Shown one piece after another: positions 7,817 through 52,189 of a stretch of 64,000 nt of DNA; position 1 is the stretch's first letter, and every line of letters begins with the position of its first letter. The notes under the pieces are model-generated. The model was not told where the DNA came from. It was given only the letters and a program-made list of their open reading frames with translations, and did not search any database. This DNA is from an uncultured Lachnospiraceae bacterium (GTDB lineage: Bacteria > Bacillota > Clostridia > Lachnospirales > Lachnospiraceae): positions 24,448 through 88,447 of the forward strand of contig CANQNN010000011.1 in the NCBI GenBank assembly GCA_947625205.1, in the 5' to 3' direction. Position numbers and translations under genes: made by a program.

Positions 7817-9862
7817 ATGAGAAAGGCAAAAACAATGGAAAGAAAGCACAAGGGATATCGCATTGTGTCATGGGTATTACTGTATAACATGTTATTTTCG
7901 GCTGTCAGCGTCTTGCTGAATGGGTGGTCATTTTCGGCGTATGTGAAACTTTTTTCATATCAGACGCTTTCTGTAGTTATACCGGGGATGGCGATGGTCC
8001 TTATCCTTCGAATCAAAATAGCATCGGATGTCGGATGGATCGGTTACTCGTTTGTCATGGGATATGTTTATAATATCCTTCTTTATTATGTCACTGTGCC
8101 GTTCGGTTTACAGATTTACGTGAAAGTCATTGGGGTGGCGGCAGCAGCGTTGAGTATGGTTCTCCTTTGGCTGAAAAGAAGTGATGTAATAGGGTGTGAA
8201 CATGACGGAGCAGGGATGAAGATCTGTACGGTGGGAGTTATTGTTTATGCGGTATTCATGTTTATTGCCTATAATGGCAATGGCCTCTCGCCGGCTCTGC
8301 TTGGCAGAACAGATTATTACACATATCATAGGGATATTCAGTATTGGATCGGCAATCTGCATTCGCTGATCAAGCAGTATCCACCGCTTAATCCGAGAGA
8401 TTATGATGCAGGTATATTCAATTATCATTATTTTTCTTCTATACAATTGGCGGTGCAGGCGATCTGGACGGGAATCCATCCGGCAATGCTTTGTATGGGT
8501 GCCTATTTCCATGTGACTGTCGTAATGGTGGTTTTTGGCGCATATCTCTTTGCAAAAAGCGTGATTCCTGAGCAAAGACCGGTTGTGCTTGCGATGGGCG
8601 CGTTATTGTTGACATCGGGAATCGAAAATGTTACGATTGTCGAACATATATGTCATTATGCACTGGCAGCATTTGGAACGGATTATGGCCTGGGTGTTAT
8701 GCTGTTTTTCATACTCGCACTATACCAATATAGTATGGGCACACAATCTGCTGTAAATGGTGGTGGGGGGGGGACAATATGTATTCTGTTACTTGCCGTT
8801 TTGACGGGCAGCAAAGGACCTTACGGCGCGGTTGCGCTTTGCGGGATCGGCGTGGTATGTTTGTATTGGTTGTGTAATCGGAAACCGCTTCGCGCCGTTG
8901 TATTCGGCATAACAGCCTTGTCTGTGTTTGGAATCATTTATTTCTTTGTATGTAATACGGCCGGTTATGTGGGTGATGGCAATTCGGCATCCATATATCA
9001 TTTGGTCATCAGAACAGATCCGTCTATGTCTATACCGGAAGCATGTTTCAGAAAGCTGGTCAGGGAGGCTGTCAACATATTGTTGATGAAACCGGTTGTG
9101 CTTTGGCCGCTGGCCGTAATCGTATTTACGAAATTGTGCCGCAGACAGCGATTCTCCGTATTTGAATGGAGTTGTCTGGGAATGGCTTTTGTTGGCCTTT
9201 CGGTCAATGCGCTCATTAGAATCCCCGGAAATTCACAGGGATATTTTGCGTTGGCGGCGCTTGTGCCGGCGTGGTGCTGCGTTTTGTGTAACGTCAAATA
9301 TGATAAGGATATTTTTGCACGATGGGGAAGCTGGAAATATATAGTGGCGGCCGTGATGCTCCTGATTGGCGTGGGTGGTTTCCTGTGGGGTTATAACAGA
9401 AACGGTAACAGATTCGGTGTTTTCTATAGTATATCTGACGGTATATATAACATTGCGCATAGAATGACGGGACAGGAGATGCCTGTGCGGAGCGATGGAA
9501 AAATCGAAGATGGGAAAATGCTGGGGAAGCAAGAGTATGAGCAGCTGACTTCCCTATATGGGGATGGTGAGTTGGATGGCATTCTTTTATATAGCTTGCC
9601 GGAACAGAGAGCAGATTTGGCTCCGTTCCGCAAGAATTTGATTAGCAGTTTTAGCGGGAAATATATTTGGCAGAATACAGAGGCTGTCAATGCTTTTATC
9701 GAGGAAGATACAGAGCAGATGCAAGAGTTTTATGATATGGGTGTGAGATATCTGCTGGTTGATTTCGCGGCAGAAAGCGATATATCGATACCGGAGACGA
9801 ACGCAGATATGATTTATGACAGCAGCGAGATGCGTATATACAAGATTTATAACGGCTCATAA
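7817..9862 (+). CDS. Large multi-spanning membrane protein, GT-C/polymerase-like, with in-frame G9 tract
   Basis: About 680 residues with many hydrophobic segments and a soluble C-terminal tail of about 150 residues. The extracellular-type loop TDYYTYHRDIQYWIG...FNYHYFSS is reminiscent of GT-C glycosyltransferases or O-unit polymerases, but I cannot assign a family. ATG at 7817, GTG 7811 and ATG 7835 are all in frame and none has a strong ribosome site. A run of nine G at 8765-8773 encodes GGG and is in frame, so the gene reads as ON in this sequence; loss or gain of one G would truncate the protein near its middle. The neighbouring Wzx-like flippase supports a polymer assembly role. Confidence 0.7.
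   Translation: MRKAKTMERKHKGYRIVSWVLLYNMLFSAVSVLLNGWSFSAYVKLFSYQTLSVVIPGMAMVLILRIKIASDVGWIGYSFVMGYVYNILLYYVTVPFGLQIYVKVIGVAAAALSMVLLWLKRSDVIGCEHDGAGMKICTVGVIVYAVFMFIAYNGNGLSPALLGRTDYYTYHRDIQYWIGNLHSLIKQYPPLNPRDYDAGIFNYHYFSSIQLAVQAIWTGIHPAMLCMGAYFHVTVVMVVFGAYLFAKSVIPEQRPVVLAMGALLLTSGIENVTIVEHICHYALAAFGTDYGLGVMLFFILALYQYSMGTQSAVNGGGGGTICILLLAVLTGSKGPYGAVALCGIGVVCLYWLCNRKPLRAVVFGITALSVFGIIYFFVCNTAGYVGDGNSASIYHLVIRTDPSMSIPEACFRKLVREAVNILLMKPVVLWPLAVIVFTKLCRRQRFSVFEWSCLGMAFVGLSVNALIRIPGNSQGYFALAALVPAWCCVLCNVKYDKDIFARWGSWKYIVAAVMLLIGVGGFLWGYNRNGNRFGVFYSISDGIYNIAHRMTGQEMPVRSDGKIEDGKMLGKQEYEQLTSLYGDGELDGILLYSLPEQRADLAPFRKNLISSFSGKYIWQNTEAVNAFIEEDTEQMQEFYDMGVRYLLVDFAAESDISIPETNADMIYDSSEMRIYKIYNGS
8765..8773 (+). 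repeat. Poly-G tract, G9, inside membrane protein gene (ON)
   Basis: Nine consecutive G between AATGGTGGT and ACAATATG, coding for glycines within the 7817-9862 gene. The frame is open on both sides, so this copy is the ON state. Homopolymer tracts of this length are typical slipped-strand contingency sites. Confidence 0.85.
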
Positions 9863-9870
9863 GGATTTTT

Positions 9871-11172
9871 ATGGAAAATGATCACTTGACCCTTCCAAAG
9901 GATTATATATGGAATACTGCCGCAGGACTCATCAATGCCGCCGAAGCTGTCGTGATGTCCATGGTCGTGACCAGAGTGACGGGACTGGCGGATGCCGGTC
10001 TGTTGACGGTCGCCTTTGCGGTCGGGAATCTGGCGATGACGATCGGCAAATTCGGTGTGCGCAATTATCAAGTGACAGACACCGAGAATCGCTTTACGAC
10101 CGCCGTTTATTTCAAAGCAAGGGTCTTGACGGTACTGTTGATGATAGCTGTAGTGTGCGGATATTTGAGATATGCTGCGTGTCATCTCGGCTATGACCGC
10201 AGTAAAACCGTCATTGTTTTTGCGACATGCATGATCTATGCAGTGGAATCTTTGGAAGATGTAGTATGGGGTTACTATCAGCGCAAAGGCCGGTTATATA
10301 TCGGTGCGCAGATGTTTTGCATACGCTGGGGCGGTATCCTGCTCGCTTTTCCGATTGTGTTATATTTGAGTAAAGATTTGGCCTTTACTTTAACCTGTTG
10401 CCTTGGCATATGTATTGGGCTTTTCCTGATACTTTTGTGGCGGGTATTCAAAAAATATTCAAGCGATATTGTTTTGGATGTGTGGCGGTCAATGGTGATT
10501 AAGAAGGGCGATTGGATGCAGATTAGAAAACTGCTGCGGAGTGTCTTTCCGCTCTTTGCCATTTTGTTCCTTGGATTTTATGAGAACAATGCGCCTAAAT
10601 ATGCCATTGATGTCTGTCTGACCGCTGAGGAGCAGGCGTGTTACGGTTTTGTGGCAATGCCTGTGTTTGCTATTGAATTGCTGAATTCTTTTGTGTACCA
10701 GCCGACATTGGTTTTGATGGCGGTGGAATGGGAACGGAAAGATATACTCAAATTCAGGAAACGAATCATCCGACAGCTTTTCATTATCGCAGGGATAGCG
10801 ACCGTATGCATGATCGGTGCTTATCTGATAGGGATTCCGGCACTGTCGCTCTTATATGATACGGATCTGTCCGGTTATAAAGATGAATTGATGCTCCTTC
10901 TTCTGACCAGCGCTTTTCTCGCAGTTTCCGGTTATCAAAGCGTTGTCCTGACGATCATGCGGTGTCAGCGGTCTCTTCTGTGGCCGCAATGTGTTATTTC
11001 GTTGGCGGCGGCTGTCGGCATGAAAAGAGCTGTAAAACATTTTGGCACTATTGGAGCTGCCACTTGCTATTTGGTGTTAATGGTAGTATTATGTATATGC
11101 TATGGGATTATTTTGACAGTGTATATGAGAAAAGGTCAATACAAAAAAACTGCTAGTAGGATAAAAGAATGA
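9871..11172 (+). CDS. Wzx-like polysaccharide flippase (MOP superfamily)
   Basis: A 433-residue, strongly hydrophobic protein with about 12-14 predicted membrane segments. The N-terminal WNTAAGLINAAEAVVMSMVV...GLADAGLLTVAFAVGNL pattern is typical of the polysaccharide transporter (PST/Wzx) branch of the MOP exporters. Such proteins flip undecaprenyl-linked repeat units to the outer face of the membrane. It starts eight bases after the preceding stop, and its end overlaps the next start by four bases (ATGA at 11169). It is the only clear flippase in the window. It has no G tract, unlike the genes on both sides of it. Confidence 0.8.
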   Translation: MENDHLTLPKDYIWNTAAGLINAAEAVVMSMVVTRVTGLADAGLLTVAFAVGNLAMTIGKFGVRNYQVTDTENRFTTAVYFKARVLTVLLMIAVVCGYLRYAACHLGYDRSKTVIVFATCMIYAVESLEDVVWGYYQRKGRLYIGAQMFCIRWGGILLAFPIVLYLSKDLAFTLTCCLGICIGLFLILLWRVFKKYSSDIVLDVWRSMVIKKGDWMQIRKLLRSVFPLFAILFLGFYENNAPKYAIDVCLTAEEQACYGFVAMPVFAIELLNSFVYQPTLVLMAVEWERKDILKFRKRIIRQLFIIAGIATVCMIGAYLIGIPALSLLYDTDLSGYKDELMLLLLTSAFLAVSGYQSVVLTIMRCQRSLLWPQCVISLAAAVGMKRAVKHFGTIGAATCYLVLMVVLCICYGIILTVYMRKGQYKKTASRIKE

Positions 11173-12635
11173 AACGGTATTGGTATAGGAATTTATGCAG
11201 TGTATTCATCGTGTGTATGTTGACATTGTTCCTGTTTCATCTGCGCTATGATATTCCGCTTTATGGGGATGATGTGGGCGGACTGACGATCAATGATCCA
11301 AACAATCATTATTTGGACGAAGTGGTGGCGCAGGGAGAATGTACATTGAATCTGGATCATTCTCTGAACGCTACATGGAATAGGGTAAAGTCTGCTTATT
11401 TTTTATGGGATGGACGCATTATCGCCAAGTTTGCGATGATACCTGTTTTGGCTTGCTTGTCGCTCCCTGACGGTATCAATTGGCTGTTGTATAGTATATA
11501 TATCACTTCACTGCAGTTGTGTCTATTTGGAATTACTGTGTTCGTAGTTGCGGAGGGGGGGGGCAAGCACAAGATTCGGATTGGCAGACTTATGCCGCTG
11601 CTTTTATTGTTGATTGCCGTATTATTATTTTATAATCCAAGTTATTCTTATGCGTATATGACAAGGATATTGATGTGGACATTTACCAACATATATGTTA
11701 TATCAGTCATTTTGTATCTCTGTCTGTATGCATTGCTCCGATATGTTATGGAACACATGTGTGTTCCGCGCATCGGATCGATCATAAGCGTTAATATTCT
11801 AGGCTTTCTGGCGGGACTTTCCCATGAGGCATACGGAGTGATTTTCGGCATGGTACTTTTGGTGCAGTTAGCGCGGTTTATATTGCGGGATCATCCGACT
11901 AAGCTCTTGCGTTGGCTGTTCTTATATGCAGGATATCTGGTTGGTTTTGGGATATGTTTTTTTGCACCGGGTAATTTTCATCGTGCGAGTCAAAGCCATG
12001 AAGCAGCATTACAAACTATCCCATTGCTGGAGCGTATGACCAACAGCTTTTATATTCATATATATATCGCGTATAGATTGTGGATCGTACCTGTCGTTGC
12101 TGTGCCGATCTTGGTCATAGGAATCGCAGTATTGCTGAAAAAAAGGATTCTCACATGGAAAGATATTTTCGGCGCAGTATGCAATAATCTGGAATGGCCG
12201 CTCGGTTTTGCCATGTCTGCGGTCACATGGGGGTTGGTTGCAAGAGTTGCCGTATACGGTATGCTAGCAGCTAATGCGATGCTGATCATCGGCGTTATCA
12301 GAATCTTAGGAGAACTGTATTCTGCAACACAGCAGAATATTACGGCGCTTACGGGCAGATACGATCCGTATATTTGGAATGCGATGGCAGGATTGAGTGT
12401 GGCGGCAGTCCTAATCCTTGCGGGCATTAACTGGCAGCAGATCGCATCGGTGCATCGGACAGCGGATATCTGGCGCACAAGTATCGCGCAGGCGCGGGCG
12501 AGTGGCGCAGCGGAGGTGGAAGTGCCACGGTATCCGGATGGCCTGAATTATAAGTTTTATGAAAGCACCATCAATGAGGGTTACGATAAGATATCGAGCA
12601 GAGTTGTATATCAAACCGCTATACGTGTAAACTGA
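11169..12635 (+). CDS. DUF6056-like multi-spanning membrane protein with in-frame G9 tract
   Basis: A 488-residue membrane protein with about 10-12 hydrophobic segments. The first outside loop contains PLYGDDVGGLTIND and WNRVKSAYFLWDGRIIAKF. This Y-G-D-D, then W-x-G-R arrangement also occurs in the protein at 50702 (GDDYGYGV then GWQGTW) and in DUF6056 proteins, which are GT-C-like. A G9 run at 11555-11563 encodes the GGG of VVAEGGGKHK and is in frame (ON). A role as membrane glycosyltransferase or polymerase is inferred from the fold type and the flippase next to it; no catalytic assignment is possible by eye. Confidence 0.7.
   Translation: MKRYWYRNLCSVFIVCMLTLFLFHLRYDIPLYGDDVGGLTINDPNNHYLDEVVAQGECTLNLDHSLNATWNRVKSAYFLWDGRIIAKFAMIPVLACLSLPDGINWLLYSIYITSLQLCLFGITVFVVAEGGGKHKIRIGRLMPLLLLLIAVLLFYNPSYSYAYMTRILMWTFTNIYVISVILYLCLYALLRYVMEHMCVPRIGSIISVNILGFLAGLSHEAYGVIFGMVLLVQLARFILRDHPTKLLRWLFLYAGYLVGFGICFFAPGNFHRASQSHEAALQTIPLLERMTNSFYIHIYIAYRLWIVPVVAVPILVIGIAVLLKKRILTWKDIFGAVCNNLEWPLGFAMSAVTWGLVARVAVYGMLAANAMLIIGVIRILGELYSATQQNITALTGRYDPYIWNAMAGLSVAAVLILAGINWQQIASVHRTADIWRTSIAQARASGAAEVEVPRYPDGLNYKFYESTINEGYDKISSRVVYQTAIRVN
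11555..11563 (+). repeat. Poly-G tract, G9, inside DUF6056-like gene (ON)
   Basis: Nine G between GCGGA and CAAGCAC, coding for glycine in the second third of a cytoplasmic loop of the 11169-12635 protein. The frame is open through the tract. Confidence 0.85.
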
Positions 12636-12644
12636 TACGGTGAT

Positions 12645-12653
12645 GGGGGGGGG
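12645..12653 (+). repeat. Poly-G tract, G9, at the translation start of a glycosyltransferase gene
   Basis: Nine G at 12645-12653, seven bases before TTG 12660. The first G completes an ATG (12643-12645). At G9 this ATG is out of frame with the glycosyltransferase; at G10 (or G7) it reads in frame into it. The tract can also act as a G-rich ribosome site for TTG 12660, with six bases of spacing. Either mechanism would make expression depend on tract length. Confidence 0.8.
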
Positions 12654-12659
12654 ACAAAG

Positions 12660-13625
12660 TTGGCAGTTGATAGCAAGAAAAAAGTGTGTGTTACCGTGCC
12701 GTGTTATAATGAAGTCGGCAATGTTAAGCCGATGGCAGACACATTGACAAAGATTATGCAGGAACTTCCGTACGATTATGAAATCCTTTTTACGGACAAT
12801 TGTTCTACGGACGGTACGAAAGAGATATTGCGTTCACTGGCGGCGCAGGATAAACATATCAAAGTATTGATGAACAACAGAAATTATGGAACGGATAGAA
12901 GAGCAAGTACAGGCTGCGGCAAATATGCGGAAGGAGATGTGTTCATAGCCATTGCCTGTGATTTTCAGGAGCCGCCTGAACTGATACCGGAATTTCTCAA
13001 ATATTGGGAGCAGGGATACAAAGTGGTCTGCGGTCAAAAAACAAGTTCTAAGGAAAGCAGATTAAAATATGCATGCCGCTGCATATTCTACAAGCTGATC
13101 AATGAACTGTCGGACACGCCCCAGTATGAGAATATGTCCGGCATACTGTGTTTTGATAAAGAAGTTTATGAAGAATTAAAAAAATATGATTATGATGTTG
13201 ATTTTAGGTTTATAGTGGCAGATGCTGGATATGAGGTCAAGCTGATTCAATATCAACAGCAAAAGCGCCGGAGCGGTAAATCCAGTTATAATGTGTGGCG
13301 ATATTTGACCTTTGCGATCACTTCTATGATAGCGACATCTACGGCACCGTTGAGGTTGATGACGGTTGCGGGATTTTTGATGTCAGTGATAAGTTTTGCG
13401 GCCGGGCTTGTTTACTTGATTGCCAAGTTGCTGTTTTGGTATCATTTTCAGGCCGGAATGGCGCCAATCCTTATAGGGATGTTTTTCATCGGATCCGTAC
13501 AATTATTTTTTCTGGGAATCGTTGGAGAATATATCGGTGTGATTTTGCGGAGGGTAAGTAAAACTCCCGAGGCTATATTGAGTGAGAAACTTAATGTTGA
13601 GGAAATCCCGCCCGATGGCGAATAA
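12660..13625 (+). CDS. GtrB/DPM1-like GT2 glycosyltransferase, membrane-anchored
   Basis: A 321-residue GT2 enzyme. Residues 8-30 hold VCVTVPCYNEVGN; the donor-site region has CDFQEPPEL in the DxD position and RRSGKSSY near residue 205. Two hydrophobic segments (about 230-250 and 265-290) end the protein as in GtrB and dolichyl-phosphate mannosyltransferases, which load a sugar onto polyprenyl phosphate. The only start in frame near the N-terminus of the domain is TTG 12660, unless a G10 tract brings ATG 12643 into frame. The gene follows a membrane GT-C-like gene, which would be the expected user of a lipid-linked sugar. Confidence 0.82.
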   Translation: MAVDSKKKVCVTVPCYNEVGNVKPMADTLTKIMQELPYDYEILFTDNCSTDGTKEILRSLAAQDKHIKVLMNNRNYGTDRRASTGCGKYAEGDVFIAIACDFQEPPELIPEFLKYWEQGYKVVCGQKTSSKESRLKYACRCIFYKLINELSDTPQYENMSGILCFDKEVYEELKKYDYDVDFRFIVADAGYEVKLIQYQQQKRRSGKSSYNVWRYLTFAITSMIATSTAPLRLMTVAGFLMSVISFAAGLVYLIAKLLFWYHFQAGMAPILIGMFFIGSVQLFFLGIVGEYIGVILRRVSKTPEAILSEKLNVEEIPPDGE

Positions 13626-13649
13626 AAGCTGCCAAAGGAGACTATAGTA

Positions 13650-14429
13650 ATGAAACAAGTTTGTGTAATCTCGGATAACGAAGCTCTTTATCAGGCATTC
13701 AGAAAGATTATAGAAAAACAAGTTTTGACAAGTAAATATAAGTTTGCCTTTTTTACTTCAGAAAAGGAGATAAAAGATATCCCGCCCCGTTGGAATGATG
13801 AACTGGCTGTCATCAATCTAAAGGAAGAAAGCGATTTGTTTTTGCGGCAATACGATCTGTTCATATCGCTGCACAGCAAACAGATTTTTCCTGCGGATAT
13901 GGTGCAAAGATACCGATGTATTAATATACATCCGGGTTATAATCCGTACAACCGCGGGTGGTATCCACAGGTATTCAGTATCATCAATAAGAAACCTGTA
14001 GGAGTTACGATCCATGAGATGGATACACAGATGGATCATGGTCCGATTATTTATAGAGAACGCATCGAGATAGAAGCGGCTGATACTTCCGGCAGCGTGT
14101 ATCAGAAAATATATAAAAAGGAATGTGAATTGCTTGCGCTCCATTTAGAAGAATTGATTGAGGGAAATTATAGAAAAAGCATGCCGGAAGCAGAGGGCAA
14201 CATCAACTACAAGCAGGATTTTAAACAGCTCTGTTTGATCGATATGGATAAAGCAGCAACTTATAGAGAGGTGATAGATTTTTTGCGGGCGATGACTTTT
14301 GACGGCTATTACAATGCATATTTTATAGACGAACACGGTGATAAGATATATGTCAAACTGGATATGGACAAGCAGACGATGACCGCGGATTCTCCGAGGG
14401 GGGGGGAGATAACAAACGTAAGGGTTTAA
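13650..14429 (+). CDS. Sugar N-formyltransferase, with C-terminal G9 tract
   Basis: A 259-residue formyltransferase of the methionyl-tRNA/sugar formyltransferase superfamily. The N-x-H (INIHPG, about residues 90-95) and Asp (MDHGPII, about 129) form the catalytic Asn-His-Asp triad used with N10-formyltetrahydrofolate. The C-terminal FDGYYNAYF...KIYVKL strand pattern is like that of enzymes formylating dTDP-4-amino-4,6-dideoxy sugars. A G9 tract at 14398-14406 lies in the last 15 codons, after the catalytic fold. At G9 the stop is at 14427-14429; at G10 the frame runs on 34 codons past the glycines and stops inside the ATGA that starts the next gene. Confidence 0.82.
   Translation: MKQVCVISDNEALYQAFRKIIEKQVLTSKYKFAFFTSEKEIKDIPPRWNDELAVINLKEESDLFLRQYDLFISLHSKQIFPADMVQRYRCINIHPGYNPYNRGWYPQVFSIINKKPVGVTIHEMDTQMDHGPIIYRERIEIEAADTSGSVYQKIYKKECELLALHLEELIEGNYRKSMPEAEGNINYKQDFKQLCLIDMDKAATYREVIDFLRAMTFDGYYNAYFIDEHGDKIYVKLDMDKQTMTADSPRGGEITNVRV
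14398..14406 (+). repeat. Poly-G tract, G9, in the 3' end of the formyltransferase gene
   Basis: Nine G between CCGA and AGATAAC. Three outcomes can be read: G9 gives a stop at 14427, G8 gives an almost immediate TAA, and G10 gives an extended C-terminus whose TGA (14507-14509) overlaps the ATG of the WbqC gene at 14506. Confidence 0.8.
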
Positions 14430-14505
14430 CAGCGGGAAATATCGTATTCTTGCATATGGCCGGACTGTATGGTGACAGCCTGAGAAAATCAGGAGGAAGT
14501 TGCCT

Positions 14506-15216
14506 ATGAAGACGGCAATTATGCAGCCATATTTCCTCCCGTATATAGGCTATTGGCAGTTGATTCATGCAGTGGATCAGTTCGTATTGTTAGATGATGT
14601 GAATTACATTACAAGAGGTTATATTAACCGTAACAGCATATTGGTCAACGGACAGGAGCATCGCTTTACGATTCCGGTTCAGAAAGCTTCACAGAACAGA
14701 TTGATCAAAGATACGGCGTTTGCATTTGACAGGGTAGAGAAAGACAGATTCCTGCGCATGATAGAAGATGCTTATAAAAAAGCGCCTCAATACCATGATG
14801 TAATGCCGCTGATCAGACAGATTGTTAATTGTGAACAGCAAGATGTCACGCAATACGTATACAACAGCCTGACTGTGATCATGAATTATCTTGATATACA
14901 GACGGAACTTTATATTTCATCGGAGATCCCTAAAGATAACGATCTCCACGGGCAGGACAGAATCATTGAAATATGCCGGCAACTGCAAACTGATGTGTAT
15001 GTTAATCCGTGCGGCGGCAGGAAATTGTATATGCCGGCTGCGTTTGAGAGAAATAATATGAAATTATATTTTCTGGATACGCGGGGCGACAGCATCAGTT
15101 ACAGTCAGGGTCGGCCGGAATTTCAAAGGAATTTATCGATCATTGATGTACTGTTCCGCAATAATGTGGATACGATCAAGATCTTTCTGGATGAATATGA
15201 TTTGCACAGCGATTAA
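14506..15216 (+). CDS. WbqC family protein
   Basis: A 236-residue protein with the WbqC-like N-terminus KTAIMQPYFLPYIGYWQLI, followed by DQFVLLDDVNYITRG and RNSILVNG. The family is common in O-antigen and capsule clusters; its biochemical role is not settled. ATG 14506 is chosen because AGGAGGAAG lies nine bases upstream; a TTG two codons earlier is in the same frame. The start overlaps the extended stop of the upstream formyltransferase in its G10 state, so coupling between the two may switch. The co-occurrence of WbqC with formyl- and methyltransferases suggests a shared modified sugar. Confidence 0.82.
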   Translation: MKTAIMQPYFLPYIGYWQLIHAVDQFVLLDDVNYITRGYINRNSILVNGQEHRFTIPVQKASQNRLIKDTAFAFDRVEKDRFLRMIEDAYKKAPQYHDVMPLIRQIVNCEQQDVTQYVYNSLTVIMNYLDIQTELYISSEIPKDNDLHGQDRIIEICRQLQTDVYVNPCGGRKLYMPAAFERNNMKLYFLDTRGDSISYSQGRPEFQRNLSIIDVLFRNNVDTIKIFLDEYDLHSD

Positions 15217-15233
15217 TCGGGAGGAATGATAAG

Positions 15234-40456: not shown

Positions 40457-40458
40457 CG

Positions 40459-43963: not shown

Positions 43964-43990
43964 AGACGCAGATTCGGCAATCTGCGTCCA

Positions 43991-44011
43991 GAGAATTGCT
44001 TCGCAATTCTC
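43991..44011. promoter_or_regulatory. Hairpin with AATTGC stem
   Basis: GAGAATTGC, a three-base loop, then GCAATTCTC: nine paired bases. There is no U-run after it, so it is not a standard intrinsic terminator. It shares the AATTGC/GCAATT core with the palindrome at 43865, which may mark a common binding sequence. Confidence 0.4.
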
Positions 44012-44026
44012 CTTGGGTTGCCATGG

Positions 44027-44054
44027 TTTACAGCATCTATGATTATGGTATAAT
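44027..44054 (+). promoter_or_regulatory. Promoter directly abutting the MBOAT start (leaderless candidate)
   Basis: TTTACA at 44027-44032, 16 bases, then TATAAT at 44049-44054 with an extended TG. Initiation about seven bases downstream would fall at 44061, the ATG itself. Confidence 0.6.
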
Positions 44055-44060
44055 AAGCGC

Positions 44061-45596
44061 ATGGGAATTACATCTTTTTATTTTTTGTGTTTTTTTGCGG
44101 TCATATTCATATTGTACTATCTGATCCCCGGGAAGCTGCAGTGGGAGCTGCTGCTTGTGTGCAGCGTGCTGTATTACCTGAGTACCGGGAATGCTGTGCT
44201 GATCCTGTATCCGGTCGCTTCGGTGACGGCATGCTATGCGGGGATCCGGCTGCTGGCCGCGACGCCGGCCGAGCATGTCAGACGGCGGCGGGCTGCGCTG
44301 CTCCTGACGATCCTTGTCAATGTCGGCATTCTGGTGGTGTTAAAGTATGTGAATTTCGGCATTTATACGATCGACGGCATCGCCCGGCTGTTCGGAAGTT
44401 CCCGGACGCTCATCGAGAGCGTGGATTTTCTGGTCCCGCTTGGCGTGTCGTTCTATACGTTCTCGCTGCTGGGATATGTGGTCGATGTGTATTACGGCAT
44501 CGCGGAGCCGCAGCGCAATTATCTCAAGCTGATGCTCTACGGTCTTTATTTTCCGACGATCATATCAGGGCCGATTCTGAAATACAGAGAGCATGGCGGA
44601 CAGTTTTTTGAGCCGCATCCCTTTGACTATCGCCGGGTGACGCGGGGACTGCAGCGCATGGCGTGGGGCTTTTTTAAGAAGCTGGTGATTGCGGAGCGGC
44701 TGGGTGTGCTGGTAGATACAGTCTATGAGAGTTATGGGGATCATCCGGGTGCATTTATCTGGATCGCCACGGCATGCTACGCTTTCCAGCTCTACACGGA
44801 CTTTTCGGGCTGCATGGATATCGTGCTCGGTATGTCGGAGAGTTTCGGCATCATTTTGCCGGAAAATTTTCAGACGCCTTTCTTTGCGAAGAGCATCTCG
44901 GAGTACTGGCGCAGGTGGCATATCACGCTGGGCGTGTGGATGAAAGAATATGTGTTCTACCCGCTGCTCAGGACGAAATTTTTCACCGGACTGAATCGGT
45001 CATGGCGGGAAAGCTTCGGCAAAAAGAAAGGAAAGCAGTACGCGACTTTTGCGGCGATGTTCCTGTTATGGCTGACGGTGGGTATCTGGCATGGGGGCGA
45101 CTGGAAATTTGTCATCGGCTCCGGGCTGCTGCACTGGTTCTATATCGTGGCGGAGGAGCTTCTGGAAGCGCCGTGTACCCGTCTTATGGAGAAATGCCGC
45201 ATCAATGCCAAGGGAAGCCTTGTGAATGCGGTGCGCATAGGCAGGACTTTTTTCCTTGTGTGCATCGGCGATCTGTTCTTCCGTGCCGCGTCGCTCAGCG
45301 ACGCTTTCGCGATGCTCGGACAGGCGGTATCGGTGTGGAATCCCTCCGTGCTGTGGGACGGCTCGCTTTTGACACTGGGGCTTCAGTGGACGGAGCTTGT
45401 GATCTTAGCGGTTTCCCTGCTGATCCTGTGGGCTGTGTCGCTGTCTCAGAGAAAGGGACCGCTGCGGGACCGGATCGCGGTCATGCCGCTGCCGCTGCGG
45501 TGGGCCATATGGTATGCGCTGCTGTTTGCGGTGATCCTTTTCGGATGCTACGGGCCGGGGTACAGCGCGGGCGAATTTATTTATCAGGGATTCTAG
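44061..45596 (+). CDS. MBOAT family O-acyltransferase (second copy)
   Basis: A 511-residue polytopic protein. The start ITSFYFLCFFAVIFILYYLI is family-typical, FKKLVIAERLG and DFSGCMDIVLG follow, and TVGIWHGGDWKFVIGSGLLHW holds the catalytic His near residue 345. It differs from the 42406 copy, so a different acyl donor or acceptor is possible. No ribosome site is visible and the promoter -10 ends seven bases before ATG, so leaderless translation is possible. The start cannot be much further downstream because the conserved first segment begins at residue 2. Confidence 0.88.
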   Translation: MGITSFYFLCFFAVIFILYYLIPGKLQWELLLVCSVLYYLSTGNAVLILYPVASVTACYAGIRLLAATPAEHVRRRRAALLLTILVNVGILVVLKYVNFGIYTIDGIARLFGSSRTLIESVDFLVPLGVSFYTFSLLGYVVDVYYGIAEPQRNYLKLMLYGLYFPTIISGPILKYREHGGQFFEPHPFDYRRVTRGLQRMAWGFFKKLVIAERLGVLVDTVYESYGDHPGAFIWIATACYAFQLYTDFSGCMDIVLGMSESFGIILPENFQTPFFAKSISEYWRRWHITLGVWMKEYVFYPLLRTKFFTGLNRSWRESFGKKKGKQYATFAAMFLLWLTVGIWHGGDWKFVIGSGLLHWFYIVAEELLEAPCTRLMEKCRINAKGSLVNAVRIGRTFFLVCIGDLFFRAASLSDAFAMLGQAVSVWNPSVLWDGSLLTLGLQWTELVILAVSLLILWAVSLSQRKGPLRDRIAVMPLPLRWAIWYALLFAVILFGCYGPGYSAGEFIYQGF

Positions 45597-45663
45597 TAAA
45601 AGCCGCCGTTATGTGGTAGAATACTGATGTCGGTAACAATATATCTGAGAGGTGTGCGAGACA

Positions 45664-46599
45664 ATGGACAAGATAGCCGTTTTGATCCCGTGTTATAACG
45701 AAGAGAAAACGATCGCCAAGGTGGTGCAGGATGCGAGGGCGGCGCTGCCGGACGCTGTGGTCTATGTGTATGACAATAACTCCAAAGACCGCACGGTAGA
45801 GTTTGCAAGAGAAGCCGGCGCCGTCGTGCGCTATGAGTATATGCAGGGCAAGGGAAATGTGATCCGGCGTATGTTCCGCGAGATCGAAGCGGAGTGCTAT
45901 ATCATGGTGGACGGCGACGACACTTATCCGATGGAGTACGCCCGTGAGATGGCGGACAAGGTGCTGGCTCACAACGCGGACATGGTGGTGGGCGACCGTC
46001 TGTCTTCCACTTATTTTACGGAAAACAAGCGGCCCTTTCACAATTTCGGCAACACTGTTGTGCGCGGCAGTATCAATCGGCTGTTTGACTGCGATATCAA
46101 GGATATCATGACAGGATACCGCGCTTTCAGCTACGGTTTCGTCAAGACATTTCCGATACTGTCCACCGGTTTTGAGATAGAGACGGAGATGACGATCCAC
46201 GCGGTCTACAATCATCTGCAGATCGAGAACGTGGTCGTGGACTACCGCGACAGGCCGGAGGGAAGCGAGTCCAAGCTCAACACGTTCTCCGACGGCTTCA
46301 AAGTGCTCCATACGATCGTGAAGCTGTACAGAGACTATAAGCCGATGCAGTTCTTCGGGATCTGCTCGGCCGTGCTCGCGGTCATCGCGGTCGCGCTGTT
46401 CATACCGATCCTGATCGCGTATATTGAGACGGGGCTGGTGCTCCGCTTTCCGACCTTATTTGTTTGCGGCTTTATCGGACTGGCCGCCGTCCAGTCGTTG
46501 TTTGCAGGGCTGATCCTGTCCAATATGGCGTTGAAAAACAGAAGGGATTTCGAGTACCGCCTGACGCTGGTGACGAGGAGAGTCAACCATGTGGAATGA
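45664..46599 (+). CDS. GT2 glycosyltransferase, DPM1-like with C-terminal membrane segments
   Basis: About 311 residues. IAVLIPCYNEEKTIAKVV opens the fold, VDGDDTYPMEYAREM holds the metal site, GDRLSSTYF and STGFEIETEM are typical of the undecaprenyl-phosphate glycosyltransferase branch, and hydrophobic segments at about 225-250 and 260-290 anchor it. ATG 45664 has AGAGGTG nine bases upstream; the in-frame TTG/GTG-type start at 45652 has none. This is the third such transferase in the window. Confidence 0.85.
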   Translation: MDKIAVLIPCYNEEKTIAKVVQDARAALPDAVVYVYDNNSKDRTVEFAREAGAVVRYEYMQGKGNVIRRMFREIEAECYIMVDGDDTYPMEYAREMADKVLAHNADMVVGDRLSSTYFTENKRPFHNFGNTVVRGSINRLFDCDIKDIMTGYRAFSYGFVKTFPILSTGFEIETEMTIHAVYNHLQIENVVVDYRDRPEGSESKLNTFSDGFKVLHTIVKLYRDYKPMQFFGICSAVLAVIAVALFIPILIAYIETGLVLRFPTLFVCGFIGLAAVQSLFAGLILSNMALKNRRDFEYRLTLVTRRVNHVE

Positions 46600-46843
46600 T
46601 CCCGCCGTCCGCTTTTGCGAATGTCTGCGTATATTTTCCGTTCTATCCGATATACTGTAATAGAGGTTTGCACAGACGGAAACGGAACGGAATTCTTAAG
46701 ATTTCCGGAATATTTTTTAAGATATCATGAGGGTTCTGTTCAAAGCGTTCAAAAAGTGGTATTCTGACTGCAGCAGATGAGCATGATGAAGATCTCATGG
46801 ATCATACATACCGTTGTAGGCAGCGGGAAAGGCAGGGTGAAAG

Positions 46844-47974
46844 ATGGAAGGCAGTAATAAGTCCGGAAAAAGGGGAAAGTTCAGCAATAACGGTCTGCTC
46901 CTTGCCGTACTGATCGGTTTCTGCATTCTGGCTATTATAGAGATCATCTACGGACAGGCGCGGATCAGGATGGAGAAGGAGAGACTGGAGCTGGAACAGG
47001 CGAATAACAAGGCTGTTCAGGAACTTCAAACGGAGTGGAACGATCTGAAGGGAGAGCCGAGCGTAGGCGCCGGATCCGCCGAGAAGGCGGGTGAGGAGCA
47101 GAGCGGCGGTACACCGGCCGGTACGGAGAAGACGCTGGTCAGTACGGGCGATTCCGTGTCAGCCGATTCTCTGTCCGAGAACGACAGCGCTTCCGGAGAC
47201 GATGAGAAGCAGTACGATATGCAGATCGTCTTCATGGGCGACAGCATTCTGGACAGTGATCGGGATTATGCGGGCGTGGCGTCTCTGATAGGGACCGAGT
47301 GCAACGCGATGGTGTACAATCTGGCCATAGGCGGCACGACGGCGGCCGTTCCTTATGATGAGTCGTACGCGTATGACAGCTGGAGTTCTCTCGGGCTGCT
47401 GGGTGTGGTCAACGCCATGATCGGGAATGTTGACGTGTCGCTGTTTGACAATTATAAGACTGCGCGTCTTTTGCGGGAATGCGATTTCTCCAAGACAGAC
47501 TATTTTGTGATAGAGTACGGCATCAACGATTTCCTGTGCGCCAAGATCCCGCGCACCAAATATCTGGCGGAAGGCGAGGTTCTGGATCTTGACGACCTGC
47601 ACACCTATAACGGCGCGTTGGACAGCGCGATATCGAAGCTGGTATCCAACTATCCGAACGCCAAGGTCATTGTCATAGGCCCCCATTACTGTCAGTTTTT
47701 CAGCGGCAGCACCTTTTTGGGAGATTCCTATACGACGGATTACGGGTATGGCACACTGTCGGAATTCTATGAAGGCGCCCGATATATCGCGGAGCAGCAC
47801 AGAAAGGATGGAGAAGACGTCCTCTTTTTTGACGCGATGGCGGACAGCGGTATTAATGCATATACCGCCGACAGTTATCTGGAAGACGGGATACACCTGA
47901 CCGAGGCGGGCAGACGGCAGTATGCCAGCTGCTTATCGAACCTGATCCTCAAGGATTTCTACCCCGAGGAGTAG
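46844..47974 (+). CDS. Membrane-anchored SGNH/GDSL hydrolase
   Basis: A 376-residue protein with one N-terminal membrane segment (LLLAVLIGFCILAIIEIIYG, about residues 18-37), a charged coiled segment, then a Ser/Glu/Gly-rich low-complexity linker (about 70-120). The SGNH blocks follow: FMGDSILDSDR (Ser nucleophile), YGINDFL (Gly/Asn block), and DGIHLTEAG (Asp-His). It likely acts outside the cell as a deacylase or acyltransferase on a surface glycan. The gap before it (46600-46843) holds no gene; a weak extended -10 (TGGTATTCT, 46757-46765) is present. A strong terminator follows. Confidence 0.85.
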   Translation: MEGSNKSGKRGKFSNNGLLLAVLIGFCILAIIEIIYGQARIRMEKERLELEQANNKAVQELQTEWNDLKGEPSVGAGSAEKAGEEQSGGTPAGTEKTLVSTGDSVSADSLSENDSASGDDEKQYDMQIVFMGDSILDSDRDYAGVASLIGTECNAMVYNLAIGGTTAAVPYDESYAYDSWSSLGLLGVVNAMIGNVDVSLFDNYKTARLLRECDFSKTDYFVIEYGINDFLCAKIPRTKYLAEGEVLDLDDLHTYNGALDSAISKLVSNYPNAKVIVIGPHYCQFFSGSTFLGDSYTTDYGYGTLSEFYEGARYIAEQHRKDGEDVLFFDAMADSGINAYTADSYLEDGIHLTEAGRRQYASCLSNLILKDFYPEE

Positions 47975-48009
47975 GGTTGCCACAGAAGAATACAGAGCAT
48001 GACCCGAAC

Positions 48010-48038
48010 GGGCTTACCGGTTGCGGTAAGCCCTTTTT
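48010..48038 (+). terminator. Intrinsic terminator after the SGNH hydrolase gene
   Basis: GGGCTTACC, loop GGTTGC, GGTAAGCCC, then TTTTT. A nine-pair G/C-rich stem with a U-run. It separates the transcript ending at 47974 from the FkbH gene. Confidence 0.88.
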
Positions 48039-48088
48039 GTTGCCGTGAGGGGACGATTGTGATACAATCAGTGGGACAGGAGACTTTT

Positions 48089-49876
48089 ATGAAAGAATTG
48101 GAATATCCCTTTGACAGCGAATATATCCTCAAAAGATCCAAGCAGATCAAACGCCGGCTTCTGGAGAACGGGACCGAGTTTCTGCACAAAAAGATAGCGG
48201 TTTTGGGAGGCAGCACGACGCATGACATTGTCAGGGTGTTGGAGCTGTTTTTGCTGAACCAAGGCATACAGCCGGAATTCTATGAGTCCGAATATGCGCA
48301 GTATTGGCAGGACGTCATGTTTGACAACCCGCTGTTGTCACGGTTTCAGCCGGATCTGATCTATATCCACACGTCCAACCGCAATATTGCAGAGTATCCT
48401 GCGCCGGGCATGGACGAGGAGCGAATCGAAGCTATGCTGGCGGAGCAGTATGAGCATTTTGCCGTGATGTGGGATAAGATCGCGGACAAGTACCGCTGCC
48501 CCGTGATCCAGAATAATTTTGAATATCCCTTCTACAGGATCATGGGCAATCGGGAGGCGGTGCTCCCGCAGGGACGCATCAGCTTTCTGAACAGGCTGAA
48601 CGAGAAGTTTTACCGCTATGCGAGAGAGCATGACGATTTCTATATCAATGATATCCATTATATGTCTGCCGCCTATGGTCTGGATAAGTGGGCGGATCCG
48701 TTCTACTGGCATATGTACAAGTATGCCGTGTGTATGCAGGCGATCCCGGATCTCGCTTACAATCTGTCCAATATCATGAAAGCCATATTCGGGAAAAACA
48801 AGAAAGCGCTTGTGCTGGATCTGGATAACACCCTGTGGGGCGGCATCGTGGGAGATGACGGCGTGGAGAATCTGGAGATCGGGCAGGAGACTTCCATGGG
48901 GCAGGTCTACGCCGAATTTCAGAGTTATATCAAAGCGCAGAAGGATATCGGCGTCATGCTCAACATCAACTCCAAAAACGAGTATGACAATGCGGTTGCC
49001 GGTTTGAATCACCCGGACGGGATCCTGCGCCCCGAGGATTTTATCCTAATCAAGGCAAATTGGGAGCCGAAGAGCCGCAATATCGCCGCCATTGCCGAGG
49101 AACTGAATATCCTGCCGGAAAGCCTTGTGTTCGTGGACGACAATCCGGCGGAGCAGGATATCGTAGGCGTGCAGATGCCCGGCGTGGCCGTGCCAAGGAT
49201 CGGGACGCCGGAGCAGTATATCAGAGTGCTGGATCACGCCGGCTTTTTTGAGGTGACGAACCTGTCGGAGGATGACCGGAAGCGCAGCGAGATGTACAAG
49301 GCAAATATGGAGCGGCAGCGGCAGCAGCGCAGCTTTGGGGACTACCGGGAATATCTGCGTTCGCTTGAGATGCGCGGAACGATACGCCCGTTTGAGCCGA
49401 TCTATATGGCGCGGATCGCACAGCTCACCAACAAGAGCAACCAGTTCAATCTGACCACAAAGCGTTATACGCAGAGCGATATCGAGGCGTTTGCGGCAAA
49501 TGAGGCGTATATCACCAGATACGGCAAATTGGAGGACAAGTTCGGCGACAACGGGGTGGTGTCTGTCGTGATCGGCAGGAAGGACGATGCCGAAAAGGCG
49601 CTTCATCTGGAACTGTGGCTGATGAGCTGCCGTGTGCTGAAGCGGGATATGGAGTATGCCATGATGGATTCTGTGGTGGCAGCGTGTCGCGGATGCGGGA
49701 TCGGGACGATATTCGGTTATTATTATCCCACCGCCAAGAATGCCATGGTAAAAGATTTCTACGGAACGATGGGCTTTGCCAAGATCAAACAGGCAGAAGA
49801 CGGCGGCACACTCTGGCGTTTCGATATCCCGGACGACTATGAGAATAAAAATACGGTGATCGCCGTGCATGCATAG
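48089..49876 (+). CDS. FkbH-like HAD-IIIC family protein (acyl-ACP loading)
   Basis: A 595-residue protein with three parts. Residues 1 to about 230 form an SGNH-like N-terminal domain typical of the family (IAVLGGSTTHDIVRVLELF). A HAD domain at about 235-390 has VLDLDNTLWGGIVGDDG with the nucleophile Asp. A GNAT-like C-terminal region (about 430-580) has LTNKSNQFNLTTKRY. FkbH proteins dephosphorylate 1,3-bisphosphoglycerate and load a glyceryl unit onto an acyl carrier protein. The ACP gene follows. ATG 48089 has GGAGAC upstream; the longer open frame from 47999 contains the terminator, so it is rejected. Confidence 0.88.
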   Translation: MKELEYPFDSEYILKRSKQIKRRLLENGTEFLHKKIAVLGGSTTHDIVRVLELFLLNQGIQPEFYESEYAQYWQDVMFDNPLLSRFQPDLIYIHTSNRNIAEYPAPGMDEERIEAMLAEQYEHFAVMWDKIADKYRCPVIQNNFEYPFYRIMGNREAVLPQGRISFLNRLNEKFYRYAREHDDFYINDIHYMSAAYGLDKWADPFYWHMYKYAVCMQAIPDLAYNLSNIMKAIFGKNKKALVLDLDNTLWGGIVGDDGVENLEIGQETSMGQVYAEFQSYIKAQKDIGVMLNINSKNEYDNAVAGLNHPDGILRPEDFILIKANWEPKSRNIAAIAEELNILPESLVFVDDNPAEQDIVGVQMPGVAVPRIGTPEQYIRVLDHAGFFEVTNLSEDDRKRSEMYKANMERQRQQRSFGDYREYLRSLEMRGTIRPFEPIYMARIAQLTNKSNQFNLTTKRYTQSDIEAFAANEAYITRYGKLEDKFGDNGVVSVVIGRKDDAEKALHLELWLMSCRVLKRDMEYAMMDSVVAACRGCGIGTIFGYYYPTAKNAMVKDFYGTMGFAKIKQAEDGGTLWRFDIPDDYENKNTVIAVHA

Positions 49877-49877
49877 G

Positions 49878-49906
49878 TTGCCAAATCGTGTAAAAACCTA
49901 TATAGT
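49878..49906 (+). promoter_or_regulatory. Sigma-A-type promoter for the acyl carrier protein gene
   Basis: TTGCCA at 49878-49883, 17 bases, TATAGT at 49901-49906, starting only two bases after the FkbH stop. It would allow ACP to be made separately from FkbH, in larger amount. Confidence 0.7.
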
Positions 49907-49930
49907 AGTACGAAGAAGGGAGAGATTCGG

Positions 49931-50173
49931 ATGAGCAGGGAAGAAGTGTTTGTAAAGCTGAACGAGGTGTTCCGCGACGTGTTTGACGACGAGAGTATTA
50001 CGGTGACAGATGCAACTACGGCGGATGATATCGAGGATTGGGATTCTCTGGAGCACATCAATCTGCTGGCGGCCGTGGAGCAGGAATTCGGCATGAAGTT
50101 CAACATGGGCCAGGTGGTATCCATGAAGAACGTGGGAGAGATGGCGGATATTATCATCGGCTGTCTTGGCTGA
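49931..50173 (+). CDS. Acyl carrier protein
   Basis: An 80-residue acidic protein of ACP size. The phosphopantetheine attachment site is the Ser of DWDSLEHINLL (about residue 39), followed by EFGMKFNM and a C-terminal helix. It probably carries the glyceryl or lactyl unit loaded by FkbH. Ribosome site AAGGGAGAG. The last 20 bases overlap the 3' end of the minus-strand VOC gene. Confidence 0.92.
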   Translation: MSREEVFVKLNEVFRDVFDDESITVTDATTADDIEDWDSLEHINLLAAVEQEFGMKFNMGQVVSMKNVGEMADIIIGCLG

Positions 50174-50564
50174 CATCCAGCAGCTCGATCATTCCCATAG
50201 ACGCGCTCGTCAGAAATACCACATTCCTGTCCCGCAGAGCGGGCGCGGGAGTGGGCGTATCGATGGAGAGAAAGCCGTTGGCGAGCAGGGTCTGATAGTC
50301 CTCGTCAAAGCTGCTTGTCTCATAGCAGATGTGATAGGGACAGTTCTTGTATTTTTTGAGCAGTCCGCTGACGACGGAGTCTTCCGATGCCGGAGACACC
50401 AGTTCTATGCGGTAATTGTCTTTTTCGAGAAAGCAGATGTTGACTTTGCGGATATCGTCGTATACCGTTTCCCGTGTGACGCGGTAGCCGAGAGCCTGAA
50501 AAGAGAGGATTGCCGCCTCCGTTTTTTTGACGAGATATCCGATGTGGTGAACTTTCAGTGTCAA
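50154..50564 (-). CDS. VOC superfamily (glyoxalase/methylmalonyl-CoA-epimerase-like) protein
   Basis: A 136-residue protein with the paired beta-alpha-beta-beta-beta layout of the VOC fold. Possible metal ligands are the His of VHHIGYLV, the Glu of YRIELVSPAS, the His of CPYHICYE and the Glu of GMIELLDV. The start is TTG 50564 with AAGGAGT upstream on the reverse strand; no ATG fits. It converges on the ACP gene. A role as epimerase of an ACP- or CoA-linked hydroxyacyl unit is a guess from context. Confidence 0.8.
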   Translation of the reverse strand: MTLKVHHIGYLVKKTEAAILSFQALGYRVTRETVYDDIRKVNICFLEKDNYRIELVSPASEDSVVSGLLKKYKNCPYHICYETSSFDEDYQTLLANGFLSIDTPTPAPALRDRNVVFLTSASMGMIELLDVSQDSR

Positions 50565-50626
50565 TATACAGTACTCCTTTTTGATGAAGGGTGTGCCGCG
50601 GACAGATCCTTGTCACGGCTTATACT

Positions 50627-50655
50627 ATTATATATGACCCGCGGGGTTTTGACAA
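50627..50655 (-). promoter_or_regulatory. Promoter for the VOC gene (reverse strand)
   Basis: On the reverse strand TTGTCA (50650-50655), 17 bases, TATAAT (50627-50632). A near-consensus sigma-A promoter, about 62 bases before the TTG start. Confidence 0.72.
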
Positions 50656-50701
50656 GGCGATACCGGCAGGGCCGTCTGCCGCAGAGCCGATGGGAGATAA
50701 A

Positions 50702-52189
50702 ATGGAGAAGAAATGCAAATATCTTACTTGGGCAAGTATACTGTTGTCCGTCGTTCTGCTGCTCCCGATCCTGTATCTTACTTTTGTGAACAGAGCGTCG
50801 GGGGACGATTACGGATACGGTGTTTACACGCGGGCCGCATGGCTTTCCACCCATTCTCTGATAGAGGTGGGAAAGGCGGTGTGGCGCACCGTAAAGCAGT
50901 TTTATGTAGGCTGGCAGGGGACCTGGTTCAGCATAGCGCTTTTCTCCCTGCAGCCGGAGGTGTTTCACGACGGCGCATATGTGATCGTGGCGGTCCTGAT
51001 GCTGGCGCTCTGGATCGGCAGCACGTTTTACCTGTTCAGGCAGGTCCTGTGCAGATACATGGGTTTTGGCAAGTGGAGTTATCGTTTCATTACGATCTGC
51101 TTTCTGATGATCGGCATAGAATTTATTCCGCGGCCGAAATCCGCCATCTTCTGGTTCAACGGCTGCGCGCATTACATGATTCCGTTTGCCATGTGTCAGG
51201 TGACGGCGGCGTGGCTTATGCGGTACTGTACGACGTATAAGAAGAAAATTCTGGGGGGGGGTATCATCCCTTTTATGGCGCTGCTCGGCGGCGCCAACTA
51301 TCAGGCGGCCCTCCTTGTGCTGATCTCGGCAGTTTATATCGGGGCGGCGGCGTGGCTTCTGCAGAAGGACAGGCGGGTCTTCCTTCTGGGGATTCCGATC
51401 GGGCTGGAGCTGATCGGACTGGCCGTGAGTTTCGCCGCGCCGGGCAATAAAGTCCGTGCCGGAGAAGATTTCGGATTTTCCGCCCTTGCGGCGCTGCAAA
51501 CGATCGGGCGATCCTTTGTGTGCGGACTGCAGGATATCGGCGGCTACGCAAAGGACAGGCCGCTGATCTTGGTGGGACTGCTTTTTCTCTTCGGCGTTTT
51601 GGTGGCTGCATGCCGCACACGGGAGAAAGGAGCCTCCTTCCGGCATCCGGTGCTGCTCGCCCTTATGCTGTTTTGTCTCTACAGCGCTATGCAGGCGCCT
51701 GCCATCTATGCGGGCGTGGACGTTTCGGGAGGTGTTCCGAATACCAACTATCAGGTGTTTTTGCTCACGGCGGCCGGTATACTGCTCATTCTGGCGCAGG
51801 TGACGACGGCGCACGGGCTGTGGGATAGGATACCGGCGGGGCTGCTGAGAGGGATAGTGATCGCGGGCATTGTATTTTGCGCTCTTTCGGTGCTTGTCTG
51901 GCGGAGCAGCATCAAGAGGAGCACATCTTATGTGTGCTTGGAATATATCACAAGCGGACAGGCGGCCGATTACAGGGAACAGATGAAGCTGCAGACGCGG
52001 CTGATGGAGGACGCGGATACGACGGATGTGGTCGTTCCGGGTATCAACGACATACAGGGGCCGCTGATGCACATGCCTGTGACCGAGGACAAGGAAGCCT
52101 GGACGAACACGGTAACGGCGCAGTTTTACGGCAAAAACAGCGTGGTCTCAATGGAACGGCCCAAGTGGCTGGAATTATACGGTGAATGA
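50702..52189 (+). CDS. DUF6056-like multi-spanning membrane protein with in-frame G9 tract
   Basis: About 495 residues and 11 or so membrane segments. The first outside loop has NRASGDDYGYGVYTR and then YVGWQGTWFSIALFSLQPEVF, like the protein at 11169; FNGCAHYMIPFAMCQV and GGANYQAALLVLIS follow. G9 at 51253-51261 encodes the GGG of KKILGGGIIP and is in frame (ON). GGGAG is five bases before ATG 50702. It overlaps the GtrA gene. As GtrA and GtrB need a membrane transferase partner, this protein could be the GT-C enzyme of such a trio; inferred. Confidence 0.75.
   Translation: MEKKCKYLTWASILLSVVLLLPILYLTFVNRASGDDYGYGVYTRAAWLSTHSLIEVGKAVWRTVKQFYVGWQGTWFSIALFSLQPEVFHDGAYVIVAVLMLALWIGSTFYLFRQVLCRYMGFGKWSYRFITICFLMIGIEFIPRPKSAIFWFNGCAHYMIPFAMCQVTAAWLMRYCTTYKKKILGGGIIPFMALLGGANYQAALLVLISAVYIGAAAWLLQKDRRVFLLGIPIGLELIGLAVSFAAPGNKVRAGEDFGFSALAALQTIGRSFVCGLQDIGGYAKDRPLILVGLLFLFGVLVAACRTREKGASFRHPVLLALMLFCLYSAMQAPAIYAGVDVSGGVPNTNYQVFLLTAAGILLILAQVTTAHGLWDRIPAGLLRGIVIAGIVFCALSVLVWRSSIKRSTSYVCLEYITSGQAADYREQMKLQTRLMEDADTTDVVVPGINDIQGPLMHMPVTEDKEAWTNTVTAQFYGKNSVVSMERPKWLELYGE
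51253..51261 (+). repeat. Poly-G tract, G9, inside DUF6056-like gene (ON)
   Basis: Nine G between AAAATTCT and TATCATCC. It is the only such tract beyond 32 kb, about 20 kb from the others, and sits in a homologue of a gene that carries a tract at 11555. Confidence 0.87.

Follow-up and report, generated by a model that had tools for sequence, protein, structure and literature searches.

A 64,000-nucleotide stretch of a Lachnospiraceae genome (the window; genome G000) carries ten tracts of nine consecutive G (G9) within a likely surface-glycan gene cluster, and these belong to a set of 78 long G tracts in the genome. We read the tracts as a poly-G phase-variation system of the Campylobacter type (a phasome) in a member of the Clostridia, acting on glycan genes and regulators with slippage as the presumed switch, and give this reading a probability of about 0.87. 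Seen directly are the tracts themselves, their near-fixed length of about nine in a bimodal distribution of run lengths, the frames that are open or broken at them, promoter-like spacers that contain them, and length differences between sister species at a few shared sites; together these back the multi-gene slippage switch of the original prediction. In keeping to a glycan locus the prediction was too narrow: the window holds 10 of the 78 genome tracts, regulators are also targets, and the trait is common to a clade.

In the proposed mechanism, slipped-strand mispairing during replication would add or drop one G per tract, and the one-G change would break the frame, shift the start region or alter promoter spacing, turning the gene on or off. 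The outcome would be a cell-surface glycan varied through acyl-, methyl-, formyl-, glycosyl- and aminotransferases, together with varied regulators. Slippage would then be frequent and reversible within a clone, and expression would track frame and spacing.

All ten G9 runs that had been predicted in the window are exact in position and length, and no other G run there reaches six, as expected from the accompanying claim of no other run of seven or more. Their division into five within intact frames, three that split a gene and two at a start codon also holds, with the tract at 14398 as the C-terminal case.

8765..8773, + strand: G9 tract within an intact 683-amino-acid open reading frame (ORF), 7811-9862, the frame open across the tract; hydrophobic, likely membrane, without a Pfam match
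11555..11563, + strand: G9 tract within an intact DUF6056 protein, 11169-12635, likely membrane
12645..12653, + strand: G9 tract that begins with the last base of an ATG (12643); with nine G, this ATG and the glycosyltransferase family 2 ORF that runs from 12660 are in different frames
14398..14406, + strand: G9 tract nine codons 5' of the stop of an N-formyltransferase, 13650-14429, in frame
18666..18674, + strand: G9 tract splitting an FkbM methyltransferase, with the pieces 18377-18664 and 18681-19514 in different frames
20314..20322, + strand: G9 tract within an intact FkbM methyltransferase, 19538-20581
23852..23860, + strand: G9 tract at a frame split, with 110 codons 5' in one frame and a 334-codon FkbM methyltransferase frame 3' in another
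27108..27116, + strand: G9 tract ending 9 nt 5' of the start codon (27126) of a DegT/DnrJ/EryC1/StrS aminotransferase and overlapping an out-of-frame ATG at 27106
31595..31603, + strand: G9 tract located 12 codons 3' of a GTG (31559, likely start), separating that frame from a 619-amino-acid hydrophobic ORF, 31629-33488, without a Pfam match
51253..51261, + strand: G9 tract within an intact second DUF6056 protein, 50591-52189, likely membrane
326..62768, + strand: likely surface-glycan gene cluster surrounding the tracts, from family matches

The length distribution sets the tracts apart from the sequence around them. In the window, G runs have lengths of 1-5 and then solely 9 (22 G5, none of G6-G8, ten G9), and C runs reach at most 6. 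With an order-3 Markov model fitted to the window minus the tracts, 60 simulations gave a mean of 0.03 runs of at least G9 per window and a maximum of 1, against the ten observed. Composition does not yield the gap at G6-G8, because G6 and G7 were more frequent than G9 in the simulations, the opposite of what is observed. Carrying the search for long G tracts into the rest of the genome, a check proposed with the original prediction, gave the 78 tracts in the 2.91-Mb assembly of 44 contigs (60 G9, 12 G8 and 6 G10), with no G7 run anywhere in the whole genome. On both strands of 477,730 bases of G000, comprising the window and the stretches around tracts, there were 189 G5, 5 G6, 0 G7, 12 G8, 60 G9 and 6 G10. 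The contig that carries the window (C11) has 14 tracts in 88 kb, where 2.4 would be expected. Sister species have similar distributions: all 39 tracts of G020 were read (6 G8, 25 G9, 8 G10), as were 66 of the 70 in G098 (7 G8, 49 G9, 9 G10, 1 G11). Homopolymer G tracts are far above chance, as is looked for in simple-sequence contingency loci.

Reading frames were compared at the 36 of 78 tracts that are flanked on both sides by 50 or more open codons. The frame was continuous at 22 (21 G9 and one G10) and broken at 14 (four G8, two G10 and eight G9). From the frame offsets, all six frames that are broken at G8 or G10 become continuous at G9, as would follow if single bases were gained or lost from a shared length of nine. 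In several broken genes, hundreds of codons stay open past the tract. In three, parts of one Pfam domain (Acyl_transf_3, YfhO or GtrII) abut the tract, the weaker pieces, which include both of Acyl_transf_3, scoring below the Pfam cut-off; at C15:43786 the tract cuts a receiver domain off an AraC-type helix-turn-helix (HTH). For the FkbM gene split at 18666, 327 relatives were found and 120 listed, or 119 once the window's own was excluded; among these listed matches both pieces are joined in one protein in 106 of 119. Ten residues lie between the pieces in 70 of those 106, and two glycines occur there in 1 of 106. Since relatives join the pieces and hardly ever have the two glycines, the 18666 tract looks like a lineage-specific insert. 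Some tracts lie at gene ends, where a length change would alter the tail; tract lengths other than G9 at 14398 would give the formyltransferase different C-terminal tails.

Other tracts are placed where a single base would act on initiation. The G of an ATG triplet falls within 12 tracts, including 12645 and 27108, not all of these triplets being start codons, and seven tracts lie 2-12 nt 5' of an ORF's first start codon. At 27108, orthologues back the start codon at 27126, and several show a G/A-rich, Shine-Dalgarno-like stretch at the position of the tract. Five tracts have a perfect TTGACA on the 5' side and a near-consensus -10 on the 3' side, with 16-19 bases between. Scored for TTGACA and TATAAT around the tract, 4 tracts reach at least 11 of 12 compared with 0.03 expected from shuffling of tract flanks, and 8 reach a looser score of 9 compared with 3.4 expected. 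For part of the 78 tracts, a one-base change would thus alter frame, start region or promoter spacing, as in known contingency loci.

It had been claimed that no tract lies on a minus-strand gene. This is so in the window, with low power (two minus-strand genes have family matches), but not elsewhere: five tracts outside the window are poly-C inside long opposite-strand frames, four with a regulator family match and one with a transposase match. We rejected the coding-strand rule, as a strand rule fits better, with 77 of 78 tracts on the locally G-rich strand; 69 of 78 are on the strand with more open-frame length. Orientation may simply follow from the excess of G on that strand, and we therefore draw no mechanism from it.

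By Mur ligase identity, the nearest of the relatives examined is G020 (88%), followed by G098 and others at 83-85%. Eighteen of the 78 G000 tracts are alignable across the tract to some relative locus, and in 16 of the 18 there is a run of G8 or longer there, although the loci were chosen mostly for carrying tracts, so that 'shared and present' is biased upwards. The matches at C1:41144 and C30:20993 have poor flanks and are not relied on. The comparison gave a divided answer: the length differs at a few shared sites between sister species, but is equal in 11 of the 16 shared tracts. A same-site length difference between related genomes is a mark of contingency loci, and here it is found between species and at few sites. 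An acyltransferase tract (C12:12025) is G9 with an open frame in G000 and G10 with a broken frame in G020. A response regulator with a receiver and an AraC-type HTH (C15:43786; L064:7786-9353) has a broken frame at G8 in G000 and a continuous one at G9 in G020 and G098; it could possibly be a switch that sits above many genes. The tract at C1:15149 is G8 in G000 and G9 in G020. The acyltransferase region (L059:3137-5582 against L273 of G020) is 98.8% identical over 2447 columns, with the tract as the sole gap. Because this identity compares with 88% for the Mur ligases, recent transfer of a tract-bearing gene between the species is likely. In the relative loci examined, no tract-bearing site aligned with any of the ten tracts of the window, and at the 27108 aminotransferase site no tract was present in any of 29 orthologue loci examined; the ten may for this reason be young or lineage-specific.

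Surface-glycan enzymes are among the poly-G targets of Campylobacter. Here, targets were assigned by the Pfam match of the ORF over or just 3' of the tract, in the part of the tract ORFs that was scanned. As a plain count, about 30 of 78 tracts lie in or beside glycan- or surface-modifying families, some of them, as with the radical SAM, methyltransferase and GNAT matches, through a glycan link that we infer. These families are Acyl_transf_3 (four), MBOAT, FkbM (three), other methyltransferases, formyltransferases, GT2 and GT87, and further GtrII, YfhO, DUF6056 (two), DUF6020, DUF2142, a deacetylase, LytR-CpsA-Psr and others. Regulators account for about nine tracts, with a histidine kinase, response regulators, AraC-, LacI- and GntR-type proteins and a GGDEF/EAL protein among the targets. 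The tract is opposite-strand poly-C at four of them and upstream of the gene at two. About ten are at other families, including a Dam methylase, the upstream region of a Mur ligase, a carboxylesterase, a Schlafen AlbA_2 protein and an IS110 transposase. The 'membrane assembly proteins' named among the predicted targets are likely membrane proteins, since each of the proteins at 8765, 11555, 31595 and 51253 has 8-13 hydrophobic 19-residue windows, but the assembly role found no support: two are DUF6056 and two have no Pfam match.

A conserved element lies upstream of the Mur ligase. Searched for by pattern (L046:3530-3538, which is C5:24529, and L189-L218), TTATGA-G(n)-A occurs in 29 of 30 genus loci, 97 to 690 nt 5' of the Mur ligase ORF, in a layout of a terminator-like hairpin, then TTATGA and the G run, then a second hairpin-like palindrome. 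The run is G8-G9 in 9 of the 29 loci, G000 included, and G5-G6 in 20. No Rfam match was found in four loci tried, the element included.

The genus (77 genomes) is placed in Lachnospiraceae by its named relatives, mostly Lachnospiraceae records, among the best 80 of 469 named loci from an aminotransferase-alignment search of contigs; a contig search with the DUF6056 protein gave no match. G9 or G10 runs also occur in loci L117 and L123, from Lachnospiraceae bacterium 28-4 and Eubacterium sp. 14-2, two relatives that look like isolates. The source organism is likely a gut bacterium. Across the genus, counts of G8 or longer range from 0 to 95 and those of G7 from 0 to 30. A tree was built from 30 of the 77 genomes, picked by best match; in it the tract-rich genomes with few G7 (39-95 tracts: G000, G020, G098, G010, G012, G005, G096 and G019) cluster with support 91/91, with two sub-clades at 100/98. 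That these eight species form one clade is moderately supported, and in all eight the run ahead of the Mur ligase is G8-G9. The simple one-clade account is weakened by three tree members from outside the clade, which have 41-45 tracts and 7-20 G7, and by two tract-rich genomes outside the 30-genome tree, G014 (81 tracts, no G7) and G007 (60 tracts, 15 G7). In an order-wide survey of 294 genomes at least 85% complete, G000 has 66 runs of G9 or longer, compared with at most 23 in other genera of the family among the genomes listed; elsewhere in the order, G053 has 95 (a few at contig ends) and G115 has 45. The bunched runs of G8 or longer at G053:C55:10-97 and a few other contig ends are probably sequencing artefacts, and counts from such drafts need care. 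Raised G9+ counts also occur in other genera (G115, 45; G122, 25; and genus g117, for example G249, 25), which may hold further poly-G switch systems.

Loss of mismatch repair was considered as a cause and rejected. In G000 there is a MutS_I match in a 935-amino-acid open frame and a MutL_C match in a 632-amino-acid open frame, and each family is found in 74 of the 77 genus genomes, G000 included. This differs from Campylobacter, which is not known to have MutS1/MutL mismatch repair.

Several observations weigh against phase variation by slippage. With MutS and MutL present, slippage would be damped. That 11 of the 16 shared tracts agree in length indicates that tract lengths are not randomised between species, or that G9 is favoured, and the continuous share of frames (22 of 36) exceeds one third, so that lengths are not merely drifting. 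Of the 14 broken frames, three or more are doubtful as genes (C1:66818, C2:290311 and C33:3565, all at G9), and about 29 of 78 tracts have no assigned family, part of the nearby ORFs having been scanned. The case is also built on one assembled genome of the species and the comparison with its sisters, from which we infer length change within a clone.

The same observations have to be set against other explanations. Errors of assembly or base calling, or ordinary pseudogene decay, might account for the broken genes, and accidents of composition for the intact ones. Homopolymers are prone to error, the assembly has 44 contigs and nearly every tract is on the locally G-rich strand, but errors would not make G9 with zero G7 in 2.9 Mb and zero G6-G8 in the window, nor leave hundreds of open codons past the tract in several broken genes, and runs of G8-G10 stand at some of the same sites in the assemblies of other species; we consider this explanation very unlikely. 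Very unlikely, too, is action at the RNA level, where transcriptional slippage or frameshifting at a fixed DNA length would give a mixture of proteins and no genetic switch. RNA slippage may act in addition, and is mentioned for poly-A in Buchnera in PMC2831843. The DNA lengths nevertheless differ at a few shared sister sites, once as the sole indel in 2.4 kb, and tracts in promoter spacers cannot act through frameshifting.

The tracts might instead be structural elements (G-quadruplexes, sites of replication pausing or tuned ribosome-binding sites) selected for a length of nine, and not switches. This would account for the sharp length peak at nine in three species, the equal lengths at most shared tracts, the conserved element 5' of the Mur ligase and the seven tracts just ahead of an ORF's first start codon. 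However, many tracts lie in reading frames and 14 of 36 break them, breaks that a structural role leaves unexplained, and the Mur ligase site is merely G5-G6 in most loci with the element; we find this explanation barely credible. Phase variation by slippage thus remains our preferred reading. A broader version of it, for which we would put the odds a little above even, is that a phasome of Campylobacter scale (39-95 tracts per genome) arose independently in one clade of gut Lachnospiraceae, with mismatch repair intact. It would randomise the glycan coat together with sensors and regulators (a histidine kinase, response regulators and a c-di-GMP enzyme) through switches of frame, start region and promoter spacing, with a conserved regulatory core, a fast-changing glycan shell and tract-bearing alleles that move between species. 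Phages or host immunity may, at a guess and by analogy with other phase-variable bacteria, supply the selection.

Some neighbouring features of the window bear on the glycan itself. The cluster at 326..62768 includes cytidylyltransferase-domain, NeuB, Polysacc_synt and WbqC proteins, formyltransferases, NDP-sugar enzymes, glycosyltransferases and MBOAT acyltransferases, and all but two of the genes named are on the plus strand, those two lying at 41428-43851. The stretch 1387-5425 encodes a cytidylyltransferase-domain protein together with a NeuB-family synthase, which suggests that the glycan bears a sialic-acid-like (nonulosonic) sugar. Inside the cluster, at 20678-23595, are two neighbouring radical SAM/SPASM proteins with the SPASM domain ahead of the radical SAM domain. 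Outside the window, a G10 tract is present near the end of a Dam-type adenine methyltransferase (L065:1602-2159; C16:1667), which could possibly be a phase-variable methylome switch or a prophage gene.

Poly-G loci are established in Campylobacter and Helicobacter, as had been noted, but Gram-positive cases were omitted (Bifidobacterium pili, PMC9187656; Gardnerella, PMC11287997). In the Campylobacter phasome, 53% of tracts are of nine and 26% of ten, with 5-81 phase-variable genes per strain (PMC6321876). The present system is alike in that poly-G dominates, the peak is at nine (60 of 78) and there are dozens of tracts, 78 being near the top of 5-81; it differs in that the host belongs to the Clostridia and not the Campylobacterota, the targets include regulators and promoter spacers, and the system is known from sequence alone. 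In Bifidobacterium breve, also a Gram-positive gut commensal with G tracts that split genes, G10 and G11 tracts split a pilus surface gene and slippage was measured by maximum depth sequencing (PMC9187656); it is of a different phylum, with one or two pilus clusters per genome compared with dozens of tracts at many kinds of gene here. Gardnerella shares G/C tracts of 8 or more in numbers per genome (median 20) and has evidence of variation (PMC11287997). There, A/T tracts (median 38) outnumber G/C tracts and about 70% of the latter are 5' of genes, whereas here the tracts are of G, many are in frames and there are 39-95 per genome in the tract-rich clade. In Helicobacter canadensis, homopolymer tracts alter C-terminal sequence (PMC2823697), as 14398 would here, although that species is of another phylum and the C-terminal placement is one of several in G000. 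No title on poly-G phase variation in Lachnospiraceae was found in the open-licence literature, which is weak evidence of absence; PMC6437147 contains the words poly-G phase variation and Lachnospiraceae, but its stated subject is Campylobacter. The kind of system is already known; new, as far as the literature was searched, are the lineage, the scale in Clostridia and the regulators with tracts common to species.

The Lachnospiraceae rank with the principal resident groups of the mammalian gut. If the tracts do switch, one clone could display an enormous number of surface states, and many genes taken for 'pseudogenes' in genomes of this kind would be alleles that are OFF for a time. This would bear on phage escape and immune tolerance, on strain tracking by gene content, and on the reproducibility of work with isolates.

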